A stretch of 64,000 nucleotides of DNA from Dermatophilaceae bacterium Sec6.4 (GTDB lineage: Bacteria; Actinomycetota; Actinomycetes; Actinomycetales; Dermatophilaceae). Below the pieces are notes generated by a model. That model worked only from the letters and a program-made list of their open reading frames with translations, was not told where the DNA came from and did no database searches. The translations under genes and the position numbers were made by a program. The stretch is from contig CP144172.1 of the NCBI GenBank assembly GCA_039636865.1, forward strand, positions 2,542,001-2,606,000, read 5' to 3'. This document shows, piece by piece, positions 21,082 to 34,581 of this stretch. Numbering within the stretch: position 1 is the stretch's first letter; every line of letters starts with the position of its first letter.

Positions 21082-22245
21082 TCAGGCCGGGTCGGTGACA
21101 CGCGACTGCACCCAGTCGTGGAATGCCGCGATGTGATGCTCGCTGGGTACGAGAACGCCACCGTTCGCGTACATCCGCGAACTCATCGCCGGCTGGCACC
21201 GTTCGCAGGCGTCGAAGTCCTGCCTGTTGACGCGGTCGAACAACTCCACGGACGCGTCCAGGTCCTTTCCACTTTCGACGACGCCCGGCAGGTAGAGCCA
21301 GTCACACTCCACGATGGTGCGATCGGGCGCCATCGGGAACATCCGGTGCACGATCACGTGGTCGGGCACCAGGTTGATGAAGACCTGCGGACGCACCGTG
21401 ATGGCGTAGTAGCGCCGATCCTGCTCCTGACTCACCCCCGGTATCCGGTCCAGGCCCTGCGAACCGTCCACCGTGAATCCCTGGATCTGCTCGCCGAACT
21501 GCGCGCCGTGTCCGACGAAATACTGCGCGGCGTATCCGTCGGCGAACTCCGGCAGTACCTCGGTCAGCTCAGGGTGGATCGTCGCGCAGTGATAGCACTC
21601 CATGAAGTTCTCGATGATCAGTTTCCAGTTGGCCCGCACGTCGTAGACGATCCTGCGTCCCAGCGCGAGATTCTCGATGTCGTAGCGCTCGATCGACTCC
21701 AGGTCGCCCAGCCGGTCGACCACCTCCTGCTGCACCGAGGCGGTGAAGTCAGGCGCCTGGTCCGCCAGACACACCCACACGTACCCCAGCCACTCCCGGA
21801 CGTGAATAGCGCGCAACCCGTAGTCGACCCGGTCTATGTCGGGCATCTTGGTCAGGTTCGGCGCCGCGATCAGCTTGCCGTCCAGGTCATAGGTCCAGGC
21901 GTGGTACGGGCATTGGAACGCGCGTTGGACCTGTCCTGACTCGTGCACACACAACCGGGCGCCGCGGTGTCGGCAGATGTTGAAGTAGGCCCGCGCCTGC
22001 CCTGTGCGGTTACGGGTCAGCAGAATGCTCTCGCGACCGATCTGCACCGTCCGGAAAGAACCCGGTGCAGGCAGGTCTGCGCTGCTGACCGCGCAGCACC
22101 ACAGTTGCTCGAAAATGCGCTCCTGCTCGCGAGCGAAGTACGTGGGATCCACATAGGTATGACCGGGCAGCGTGGAGATCAGGCTGGCGCCGGCCCGGCT
22201 GCTGGGCTCGCTCGCTGACGGGGTGGACTGCACGGTGTCGGTCAC
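21082..22245 (-). CDS. gbcA: Rieske non-haem iron oxygenase, probable glycine betaine monooxygenase
   Basis: Oxygenase component of 387 residues. The Rieske [2Fe-2S] ligands are Cys91, His93, Cys112 and His115 (CRHRG, CPYHAW). The catalytic iron site includes Glu216, His219 and His224 in NFMECYHCATIH. This pattern fits betaine/carnitine monooxygenases. Neighbours for choline, betaine and dimethylglycine oxidation favour betaine demethylation to dimethylglycine plus formaldehyde. The GTG start at 22245 has AAGGAG 5 nt upstream; longer in-frame starts lack one. The classical partner GbcB is absent, and a separate ferredoxin and reductase lie upstream in the same direction. CntA-like carnitine activity is the main alternative. 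Confidence 0.82.
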   Translation of the reverse strand: MTDTVQSTPSASEPSSRAGASLISTLPGHTYVDPTYFAREQERIFEQLWCCAVSSADLPAPGSFRTVQIGRESILLTRNRTGQARAYFNICRHRGARLCVHESGQVQRAFQCPYHAWTYDLDGKLIAAPNLTKMPDIDRVDYGLRAIHVREWLGYVWVCLADQAPDFTASVQQEVVDRLGDLESIERYDIENLALGRRIVYDVRANWKLIIENFMECYHCATIHPELTEVLPEFADGYAAQYFVGHGAQFGEQIQGFTVDGSQGLDRIPGVSQEQDRRYYAITVRPQVFINLVPDHVIVHRMFPMAPDRTIVECDWLYLPGVVESGKDLDASVELFDRVNRQDFDACERCQPAMSSRMYANGGVLVPSEHHIAAFHDWVQSRVTDPA

Positions 22246-22266
22246 GTCACTCCTTCGATCAACAGT

Positions 22267-22280
22267 GTTTTCAACGGAAC
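22267..22280. promoter_or_regulatory. Motif shared with the iclR/betA intergenic region
   Basis: GTTTTCAACGGAAC at 22267-22280 contains TTTCAACGGA, which recurs at 25652-25661 in the divergent betA/iclR region. It lies 22-35 nt upstream of the oxygenase start. It may be an operator for the IclR regulator; two short copies are weak evidence. Confidence 0.35.
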
Positions 22281-22303
22281 TGAGCGGTAGTCGGGTAGGA
22301 GCG

Positions 22304-31983: not shown

Positions 31984-33080
31984 ACCGGTTCCCGCGACAG
32001 CACCGTAGCCAGCTCCTCGCGCCCGACGTAGCCGATGACCCGATCACCGTCGACAACACGCAACCGTGCATCCGATTCCAGGATCTGACGTATTGCGTCC
32101 CGGATCACCGTTCGACTGGCAACCGTCGGACCGTCGGTGCGCTCGCCCGGCTGCTCAGGCGTCGCGATCCACCGCATCGTCAGGACGTCCTGACGAGCGA
32201 CGTCCCGCACGAAATCCCGCACATAGTCGTCGGCGGGATTACCGACCAACTCATCGCCGGTTCCGAGTTGGATGGCCGCCCCGTCGCGCATGATGAGGAT
32301 GCGGTCACCGAGCTTGAGGGCCTCGGACAGATCATGCGTCACGAAAACCATCGTCTTACCCATGTCGTGATGCAACCGGATGACCTCCGCCTGCATGTCG
32401 CGGCGGATCAGCGGGTCGAGTGCTGAGAAGGGCTCGTCGAACATCAGCAGTTCCGGGTCACCGGCCAGCGCACGTGCCAGACCCACCCGCTGTTGCATGC
32501 CGCCGGACAACTCGTGTGGGAAAGACTTCTCATAACCGGTCAGACCCACGAGGTCGATGACCTCCTGGGCCCGGGCCCAGCGGCTGGCCTTGTCGACTCC
32601 CCTGATCTCCAGTCCGTAGGCGACGTTCTCGGTGACGCTACGGTGCGGCAGCAGACCGAAGTGCTGGAAGACCATCGAGATCTTGGTACGACGGATCTCA
32701 CGCAACGTCTTGTCGTTGGCGTCCAGCAGGTTCGAGCCGTCGAGGTCGATCTCGCCGCTGGTGGGTTCGATCAGCCGTGAAAGGCAACGGATCAGGGTCG
32801 ACTTGCCGGAACCGGACAAGCCCATGATGACGAATACCTCGCCGCGTGGCACGTCGAAGGACACGTTACGAACTGCAGCCGTGCACCCCGTCTGGTCAAT
32901 GAGCTCGCGGCGCGACAGCGCGCGTAGCTGCGCCGATGCGGGGACGTCGTCGGCCTTCCTGCCGAACACCTTCCACAGGTCGCGGACCCGCAGCAGCGGC
33001 TCCTGGACATCCGACACACCGGTCGGGCGACTGCGGGAGTCGGAGCGCACTGGTCCTGTCGTGGGTGCGGTCATGTGCAT
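31980..33080 (-). CDS. Glycine betaine/choline ABC transporter ATPase with CBS domain
   Basis: ProV/OpuAA-type ATPase of 366 residues. Walker A is GLSGSGKST, the Q-loop SMVFQHFGLLPHR, the signature LSGGMQQR and Walker B LLMFDEPFSALD; THDLSEAL carries the switch His. The C-terminal region (about the last 70 residues, ending GYVGREELATVL) looks like one CBS motif, which in OpuA senses ionic strength. The ATG at 33080 has AAGG 4 nt upstream; an ATG two codons later at 33074 is an alternative. It is transcribed with the aldehyde dehydrogenase gene upstream. Confidence 0.9.
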   Translation of the reverse strand: MHMTAPTTGPVRSDSRSRPTGVSDVQEPLLRVRDLWKVFGRKADDVPASAQLRALSRRELIDQTGCTAAVRNVSFDVPRGEVFVIMGLSGSGKSTLIRCLSRLIEPTSGEIDLDGSNLLDANDKTLREIRRTKISMVFQHFGLLPHRSVTENVAYGLEIRGVDKASRWARAQEVIDLVGLTGYEKSFPHELSGGMQQRVGLARALAGDPELLMFDEPFSALDPLIRRDMQAEVIRLHHDMGKTMVFVTHDLSEALKLGDRILIMRDGAAIQLGTGDELVGNPADDYVRDFVRDVARQDVLTMRWIATPEQPGERTDGPTVASRTVIRDAIRQILESDARLRVVDGDRVIGYVGREELATVLSREPV

Positions 33081-33102
33081 CTCACCTTCTAGGAGTTCCG
33101 TG

Positions 33103-34581
33103 TCAGGCTTCGGCGTTGCCGAACCAACGCGGCGGTGCGGGTTCGATGTTGTGCCAGATGTGCTTGGTCTCGCGGTACTCCTCCAGACCCGCCTTACCGA
33201 GTTCGCGCCCGACCCCGCTGCGTTTGAACCCGCCCCATTCGGCTTGCGGTACGTAGGGGTGGAAGTCGTTGATCCACACCGTGCCATGCCGCAGCGCTCG
33301 CGCAACCCGTTGTCCACAACCCGGGTCACCGGTGAAGACGCCGCCGGCGAGTCCGTAGATCGTGTCGTTCGCGATCGCGACGGCATGCGCCTCGTCGCTG
33401 AATCGTTCCACGGTGAGCACCGGACCGAACGATTCTTCCTGCACGATCTGCATCGAGCTGTGGCAGTCGTCGAAGATCGTGGGCAGGTAGAAGAACCCGC
33501 CCTGCAACGCGTCGTCGGCCGGGCGGGCGCCGCCGCAGCGGAGCACGGCCCCCTCGGCGATACCTGCCGCAACATAGGACTCGACCTTCTCCCGGTGCGC
33601 CGCAGAAACAAGGGTGCCGGTTTCGGCAGCCTCGTCAAAGGGACCCCCGAGGCGGATCCGGCCGGCCCGCGCGACCAGTTCATCGACGAACTCGTCGTGA
33701 ATGCTGTCCTGCACGATCAGCCGCGAACCGGCCGAGCAGACCTGCCCGGAGTGCAGGAAGATCGCCGTCAGCGCATGGTCCAACGCGGTTTCGCGGTCTG
33801 CGTCGGCGAATACGATGTTCGGATTCTTGCCGCCCAGCTCCAGAGCGACCTTCTTGATCGTCGAAGCCGCCGACGCCATGACGGCCCGACCGGTGGCCAG
33901 GCCTCCGGTGAAGGAGATCAGATCCACGTCCGGATGGCTCGCCAACACGGCTCCGGTATCGGGACCAGCCCCCAGGACCAGGTTTCCCACACCGGCCGGC
34001 AGACCGGCGTCGGTCAGGGCCTGCAGGAACAGGATGGCGGTTGACGGGGTGAGCTCACTGGGCTTGACGATGAACGTGTTGCCCGCGAGCAACGCCGGTG
34101 CGATCTTCCAGATCGCCTGCAGGAGGGGGTAGTTCCACGGAGTGATCAGGGCACATACGCCGACCGGTTCATACTCGATACGGCTGACGATGTCGCGCCG
34201 ACCGGTGTCCACGACACGTCCGGCCGATGCACCGGCCATGCTCGCGTAGTGGCGTAGACAGGCGATCACGTCCTCCATGTCGTATTCGGCCTCGACCAGA
34301 CGCTTGCCGGTATCCAGCGCCTCCGCACGCGCAAAGTCATTCTTGCGATCCGCCAGGAGTTCAGCTGTCCGGCGCAGCAAGTCGCCGCGATCCCTCTCGG
34401 GTAATTGCGGCCACGGGCCGGAGTCGAACGCGCGTCGGGCAGCGGCGATGGCCTGTTCGCAGTCTTCGCGGCCCGCCTCGCTGACCGTCGCGACCAGCGA
34501 ACCGTCGGCCGGACAATGGATCTCGCGGACAGCACCGGAGGCCGCGCTGCGCCATTCTCCGTCGATGAACAGATCGTGCAT
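33103..34581 (-). CDS. betB: Betaine aldehyde dehydrogenase
   Basis: NAD(P)-dependent aldehyde dehydrogenase of 492 residues. TPWNYPLLQAIWKIAPALLAG is the cofactor-binding region, ELGGKNPNI carries the general-base Glu and SGQVCSAGSRL the catalytic Cys. It starts MHDLFIDGEWR with GGAGG upstream. With betA it should take choline to betaine. Other aldehyde substrates are possible, but the surrounding genes support betaine aldehyde. It is the first gene of the minus-strand run of aldehyde dehydrogenase, transporter and dimethylglycine oxidase. Confidence 0.88.
   Translation of the reverse strand: MHDLFIDGEWRSAASGAVREIHCPADGSLVATVSEAGREDCEQAIAAARRAFDSGPWPQLPERDRGDLLRRTAELLADRKNDFARAEALDTGKRLVEAEYDMEDVIACLRHYASMAGASAGRVVDTGRRDIVSRIEYEPVGVCALITPWNYPLLQAIWKIAPALLAGNTFIVKPSELTPSTAILFLQALTDAGLPAGVGNLVLGAGPDTGAVLASHPDVDLISFTGGLATGRAVMASAASTIKKVALELGGKNPNIVFADADRETALDHALTAIFLHSGQVCSAGSRLIVQDSIHDEFVDELVARAGRIRLGGPFDEAAETGTLVSAAHREKVESYVAAGIAEGAVLRCGGARPADDALQGGFFYLPTIFDDCHSSMQIVQEESFGPVLTVERFSDEAHAVAIANDTIYGLAGGVFTGDPGCGQRVARALRHGTVWINDFHPYVPQAEWGGFKRSGVGRELGKAGLEEYRETKHIWHNIEPAPPRWFGNAEA

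Follow-up and report, generated by a model that had tools for sequence, protein, structure and literature searches.

Soil and plants commonly contain choline and glycine betaine, and actinomycetes rank among the major degraders in soil. In Pseudomonas, Chromohalobacter and Vibrio, aerobic degradation of betaine is known to proceed by way of dimethylglycine and sarcosine and to involve PurU, GlyA and serine dehydratase; in Vibrio penaeicida the betIBA and proVWX/choVWX genes lie directly upstream of the betaine breakdown genes (excerpt of PMC12093977). A cobalamin methyltransferase is used instead in Ruegeria (excerpt of PMC12478193). Choline and betaine both support growth of Arthrobacter sp. 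Rue61a; its betaine pathway is marked 'incomplete', and a dimethylglycine oxidase has been put forward for the step that follows (excerpt of PMC3534580). Two neighbouring genes of Paenarthrobacter ureafaciens PC carry the labels bmoA and bmoB (excerpt of PMC11945447). The pathway and its gene clustering are already known from Arthrobacter, Pseudomonas and Vibrio, and are ordinary and widespread. Here, we describe a locus of Dermatophilaceae bacterium Sec6.4 that is very probably a choline and glycine betaine catabolic cassette with its own import system. It occupies positions 21,082 to 34,581 of a 64-kb stretch of DNA (the window; 2,542,001 to 2,606,000 of contig 2 in the 3.79-Mb host genome). 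The analysis brings no new pathway; it names a testable enzyme for the actinomycete betaine step and a testable regulator site, and it indicates where the formaldehyde and folate-bound carbon of the pathway probably go.

Gene content and proposed pathway of the cassette

Open reading frame (ORF) listing, codon-position G+C (GC) content and Pfam/NCBIfam scans revealed ten intact in-frame genes that fill the locus from the end of the Rieske oxygenase gene to the ATG of the aldehyde dehydrogenase gene, nine on the minus strand and only iclR on the plus strand. Every gene that the initial annotation had placed within 13.5 kb is there, with its reading frame and domains intact, and the list and coordinates of that annotation are right. 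It had also described the locus as split by the IclR regulator; the regulator does lie inside, and the arrangement can be refined, with iclR (25,676-26,482) overlapping the dimethylglycine oxidase gene tail to tail and diverging from betA across a 143-base gap (25,533-25,675). Judging by position alone, the minus-strand genes likely form two transcription units, one of aldehyde dehydrogenase, ATPase, permease, binding protein and dimethylglycine oxidase, the other of betA, ferredoxin, reductase and Rieske oxygenase.

The choline dehydrogenase BetA (23,829-25,532) exceeds its family cut-off (TIGR01810, 799.6 bits versus 732.1) and matches the oxygen-dependent choline dehydrogenase 9lq0 with 596.1 bits, while the aldehyde dehydrogenase (33,103-34,581) matches solved betaine aldehyde dehydrogenases with up to 547.6 bits (PDB 4mpb). 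The dimethylglycine oxidase (26,479-28,914), with its flavin adenine dinucleotide (FAD) and folate-binding domains, aligns over its whole length with the Arthrobacter globiformis enzyme (PDB 1pj5, 977 bits), and His225, Tyr259 and Asp552 are conserved in this alignment (positions counted by hand). Asp552 has a role in folate binding or turnover. His225 and Tyr259 are active-site residues according to the title of a reference cited in PMC5082570 (excerpt).

The ATP-binding cassette (ABC) importer falls within the ProV/OpuA quaternary-amine type, both by its ATPase (31,980-33,080; TIGR01186, 353.8 bits, above 326.6) and by the OpuAC domain of its binding protein (28,946-29,950; PF04069, 134.5 bits, above 21.2). 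The permease between them (30,004-31,983) has two fused BPD_transp_1 domains (PF00528 twice; TIGR03416, 379.2 bits, above 363, when summed over two stretches). The binding protein scores 64.1 bits on the ChoX choline-binding model, below the cut-off of 379.05, and its best solved match is 4xz6 (86.5 bits), which we take to be the trimethylamine N-oxide (TMAO)-binding protein TmoX. This match would suit an importer of TMAO or another methylated amine instead of choline or betaine. However, the same protein also aligns with the glycine betaine-binding OpuA (45.4 bits), where W57, W105 and Y224 fall on Trp positions that presumably form part of the ligand cage; moreover, relatives keep the importer genes together with those of BetA and aldehyde dehydrogenase, and no separate TMAO demethylase occurs among the ten cassette genes. 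We consider such an importer improbable.

In order to compare the locus with its relatives, genome contigs were searched with a profile made from seven aligned oxygenases, which confirmed at least 472 relatives among at least 596 matched stretches. The loci considered below are the best 80 of these, actinomycetes by title and mostly of Streptomyces and Arthrobacter-type genera; gene presence was called by identity thresholds, and, with several loci ending at contig edges, all counts are lower bounds. IclR and reductase genes occur in 73 loci each and the ferredoxin gene in 64, followed by betA (44), aldehyde dehydrogenase (41) and dimethylglycine oxidase (31), and by the ATPase (39), permease (37) and binding protein (29) of the importer. 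At least one gene of the choline, betaine or sarcosine pathway is present in 71 of the 80 loci, and all ten cassette genes occur together in 6. A chance juxtaposition is ruled out by this recurrence. Formaldehyde dehydrogenase (45 loci) and PurU (36) are also found in these loci, as are soxA, soxB and soxD (20 each) and serine dehydratase (11); the formaldehyde dehydrogenase count is telling because the oxygenase step is expected to free formaldehyde.

Having noticed neither a sarcosine oxidase nor a formaldehyde-handling gene, the initial annotation had reasoned that the pathway must finish elsewhere and proposed a search of the genome for soxBDAG and formaldehyde detoxification genes. The absence holds for the locus but not for the genome, in which both were found. 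The soxBDAG and serine dehydratase genes share one stretch at about 411,900 to 418,300 of contig 2, and soxB (620.3 bits, above 529.45), soxD (127.7, above 27), soxG (144.8, above 143.95) and the adjacent serine dehydratase (666.6, above 345.1) exceed curated cut-offs. The same is true of a mycothiol-dependent formaldehyde dehydrogenase (675.1, above 512.9) and of PurU (310.7, above 285.95), so a genome without the finishing steps is ruled out. The soxBDAG genes (L133, 9,904-16,320) are followed directly by the serine dehydratase gene, and PurU is located elsewhere; the same succession of sox and serine dehydratase genes is described for clusters of Arthrobacter and Corynebacterium (excerpt of PMC3534580).

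Gene identities, catalytic residues, conserved linkage, finishing genes and a conserved palindrome (described below) can all be read directly from the DNA. The sequence of events given by the initial annotation, uptake followed by oxidation of choline to sarcosine, fits the family scores, the catalytic residues and the gene neighbourhood. In the proposed mechanism, the importer would bring in choline, betaine or both, and BetA and the aldehyde dehydrogenase would convert choline to betaine. Electrons from NADH would then pass through the BphA4-like reductase and the Rieske ferredoxin to the quaternary-ammonium-type oxygenase, which would remove a betaine methyl group as formaldehyde and leave dimethylglycine; dimethylglycine oxidase would produce sarcosine and 5,10-methylene-tetrahydrofolate, and the pathway would be completed by genes located elsewhere in the genome, namely soxBDAG and those for serine dehydratase, PurU and the mycothiol-dependent formaldehyde dehydrogenase. 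We infer the substrate of the oxygenase, the pairing of the three redox components and growth on choline and betaine compounds from the sequence.

Some observations speak against a catabolic cassette. TIGR01804 is the best family of the aldehyde dehydrogenase, yet the score (601.4 bits) stays below the cut-off of 668.6; the host soxA reaches 1,086.9 bits, under its curated cut-off of 1,164; and 7 of the 80 loci, some on short contigs, have no pathway gene, PurU or formaldehyde dehydrogenase. The same genes might also serve mainly for osmoprotection, with the importer, BetA and aldehyde dehydrogenase hoarding betaine and the demethylation genes disposing of it after stress. Identical parts are well known to serve osmoprotection in many bacteria, and in a soil Arthrobacter drying raises the choline-to-betaine genes while hydrated controls raise the betaine catabolism genes (excerpt of PMC13011423). 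However, each presumed unit of the cassette combines genes for betaine synthesis with genes for demethylation, in line, on one strand and with small gaps, and the loci of relatives add formaldehyde and folate genes. It seems that osmoprotection as the main function is unlikely, though it deserves more weight than a TMAO importer. Catabolic use of an osmolyte, as first proposed, is supported, and the locus may act in osmoprotection in addition.

The Rieske oxygenase and its probable electron carriers

The gene at 21,082-22,245 encodes the alpha subunit of a Rieske non-heme iron oxygenase (387 amino acids from a GTG start), a candidate glycine betaine N-demethylase. It has the hallmarks of group V, namely the Rieske CxH...CxxH motif, a 2-His-1-carboxylate triad and a Cys-x-x-Cys pair beside the iron site, the last of which has been described for some group V Rieske oxygenases. 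All 80 relatives share these hallmarks, which partly follows from the search patterns used to find them. When the predicted model was ranked by fold, Stc2, 3n0q and CntA filled positions 1 to 18 in Foldseek and 1 to 10 in VIA-align. The closest solved relative is the stachydrine demethylase Stc2. Going by these residues and the nearest fold of the model, the enzyme resembles the quaternary-ammonium demethylases Stc2 and CntA and is assigned to group V. A tree built from 88 oxygenases pairs the sequence from the window with that of G020, which belongs to the same family (100/83; the bootstrap had not settled). Among 58 genomes near the host, its own included, 20 have any oxygenase match and 7, again with its own, have one of at least 64 percent identity.

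The carriers linked to the oxygenase are of the aromatic-dioxygenase type. The ferredoxin reductase (22,304-23,479) is a FAD protein of the BphA4/HcaD type with a Reductase_C domain (PF07992, PF14759), scoring 251.1 bits on the HcaD model, below the cut-off of 450. The ferredoxin (23,476-23,832, with the start at 23,832 or 23,823) had been noticed before simply as a ferredoxin; its presence stands, and its type can now be specified as a Rieske-type [2Fe-2S] protein (PF00355, 64.7 bits; NF007422, 143.5 bits, above 113). Both genes lie within 4 kb of the oxygenase gene in 60 of the 80 loci. GbcB-type reductases consist of flavin and plant-type ferredoxin domains, and none is found among the ten cassette genes. 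The host genome gives six Fer2 matches, and the two inspected adjoin ORFs reading as phenylacetate-CoA ligase and fatty acid desaturase.

According to the above-described analysis, we favour, with moderate confidence, a distinct three-component Rieske monooxygenase that demethylates betaine in actinomycetes through an aromatic-dioxygenase-type chain, under an IclR repressor reading GTTGCGNATNNCGCAAC, and that fills the open betaine step of Arthrobacter. The bmoA and bmoB labels in Paenarthrobacter make this reading slightly less probable. Three-component systems are known for part of the class D Rieske oxygenases, and GbcA has been placed in the little-known class D* (excerpt of PMC5209329), so the arrangement as such is not new. 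In the open-licence literature, mostly judged by title and abstract, we found no description of a three-component make-up for betaine or of the operator.

Several results weaken this assignment. On the GbcA model NF058607 the oxygenase scores 228.7 bits, and because this is far under the curated cut-off of 670, betaine is proposed as the substrate on indirect grounds. The model has a mean predicted local distance difference test (pLDDT) score of 81.4, and the iron-site stretch 214-256 lies below 50. In addition, the reductase occurs without a nearby ferredoxin in 11 of the 80 loci, and neither carrier is near in 9, some of them on short contigs. The low GbcA score, together with stachydrine demethylase as the closest solved relative, would also agree with an oxygenase whose substrate is a different quaternary or tertiary amine, such as stachydrine, carnitine, choline or dimethylglycine, and which is merely parked in a betaine locus, as would the two copies in different contexts in some genomes (L048 and L061 of Streptomyces scabiei). 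We regard this as an unlikely alternative, since pathway genes accompany the oxygenase in 71 of the 80 loci, the locus would otherwise have no betaine-to-dimethylglycine step, and several close homologues carry the name 'glycine betaine catabolism A' from the Joint Genome Institute pipeline. Some 24 kb separates the two S. scabiei copies; genes for BetA, aldehyde dehydrogenase and the importer accompany one of them, and sox genes the other.

The IclR regulator, its predicted operator and the genomic setting

The regulator contains PF09339 and PF01614, and its best NCBIfam model is BhcR (188.8 bits, below the cut-off of 350). The palindrome GTTGCGNATNNCGCAAC is common to the gaps between iclR and its divergent neighbour in relatives. 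This 17-base consensus was read by eye from the iclR gaps and then counted, so the counts are not independent of its choice. Counting allowed up to 3 mismatches in the 350 bases upstream of each gene; neighbouring regions overlap, and the counts are not mutually independent. The palindrome was found upstream of iclR in 61 of 76 cases, betA in 38 of 44, aldehyde dehydrogenase in 34 of 42 and ferredoxin in 61 of 64. It was also found upstream of reductase (25 of 74), Rieske oxygenase (24 of 80) and dimethylglycine oxidase (14 of 31), where, given the 350-base regions and a gene order that varies, some sites may be shared with a neighbouring gene, and upstream of the binding protein, permease and ATPase in 0 of 28, 0 of 36 and 1 of 39, respectively. 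Shuffled upstream regions gave 0.7 to 3.7 matches. For the most part, this distribution agrees with control where transcription units begin. An 18-base palindrome from expectation maximisation was dropped, as it had drifted to a different weak pattern.

Scored with a matrix, the best site of the whole window is a predicted IclR operator at 34,630-34,646 (17.1 bits), 48 bp upstream of the start codon of the aldehyde dehydrogenase gene. Five shuffled windows reached a maximum of 14.0 bits, and random sequence (2 Mb, fixed at 66 percent GC) gave about 0.5 matches of at least 17 bits per Mb. The matrix was also checked on six loci outside its training set, in which it found strong sites in the iclR/betA gap (G020, 24.4 bits), at the start of iclR (G027, 21.3 bits) and between ferredoxin and reductase genes that diverge (G040, 18.1 bits). 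It seems that IclR binds the GTTGC-n7-GCAAC palindrome and most likely represses both units until a pathway compound releases it; we infer this binding, its sign and its inducer.

The evidence on the regulator is not uniform, and the following results count against it. While the betA/iclR gap holds strong sites in many relatives, that of the window has only weak or half sites, of 6.5 bits at 25,612 and of 8.5 bits at 25,668, the latter overlapping the iclR start. Among the loci outside the training set, G028 (L025) has 11.5 bits before the ferredoxin gene and its best match, 15.9 bits, at no cassette gene, and L023 and L026 have no match above 11 bits. No palindrome above 8.7 bits was found in the 19.9 kb around sox, which rules out an IclR regulon reaching these genes. 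Genome-wide, the pattern is barely commoner than its reversed control (38 matches versus 30), and a regulon clearly spread over the genome is ruled out as well. A 16.9-bit match elsewhere in the host genome (L135, 4,871) lies in an ORF unrelated to the cassette, and may belong to another IclR-type regulator.

By comparing the window with two searched genomes of the same genus, we found that both congeners lack the oxygenase (best matches of 31-33 percent identity) and the dimethylglycine oxidase (30-33 percent, over the folate-domain part only). Both flanks are syntenic in both genomes, with the DNA alignment running from 17,609 to about 21,047 and again from 34,863, at identities of about 82 and 72-81 percent. 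In G002, znuA-, ATPase- and ABC-3-type (znuABC-like) genes stand at the place of the cassette (L162, 7,441-10,005). Gain in the host or loss in the congeners may explain the gap equally well. No 12-base repeat is shared between 20,951-21,120 and 34,501-34,680, and no GC shift marks the cassette ends; a compositionally foreign island is ruled out by a locus GC of 0.65-0.67, inside the range of the window. A second stretch, 8,710-15,471, is also missing from the DNA alignment of both congeners (8,709 joins 15,472), and the moxR/vWA pair thus lies between two variable stretches. This second stretch has genes of the glyoxalase, M20 peptidase, MFS transporter, methyltransferase, carboxymuconolactone decarboxylase and alpha-L-arabinofuranosidase families. 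A gene resembling kinases lies at 15,658-17,046; it belongs to the APH_6_hur family (87.6 bits), which takes its name from aminoglycoside/hydroxyurea kinases.

Comparison with known systems

The GbcAB/BmoAB systems of Pseudomonas, Chromohalobacter and Vibrio follow the same Rieske route from betaine to dimethylglycine and formaldehyde, with subsequent oxidation of dimethylglycine and sarcosine, and PurU and serine dehydratase are also in common (excerpt of PMC12093977). However, the cassette differs from GbcAB in its separate Rieske ferredoxin and BphA4-like reductase, and its oxygenase reaches only 228.7 of the 670 bits on the GbcA model; it also has an IclR regulator in place of the AraC-type GbdR, and dimethylglycine oxidase in place of DgcAB.

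With the group V enzymes Stc2 and CntA (carnitine monooxygenase), the oxygenase shares the fold, the iron and cluster ligands and the Cys-x-x-Cys pair, whereas the identity in the fold alignment is about 28 and 26 percent, the gene context is different, and the cassette is three-component. The ferredoxin and reductase are of the same types as in the HcaC/HcaD and BphA3/BphA4 chains of 3-phenylpropionate and biphenyl dioxygenases, but no beta subunit is found among the ten cassette genes and the oxygenase appears to be of the quaternary-ammonium type. Finally, dimethylglycine oxidase, soxBDAG and serine dehydratase are in common with Arthrobacter sp. Rue61a, which uses a choline oxidase where the Dermatophilaceae cassette has BetA and a linked Rieske system (excerpt of PMC3534580).

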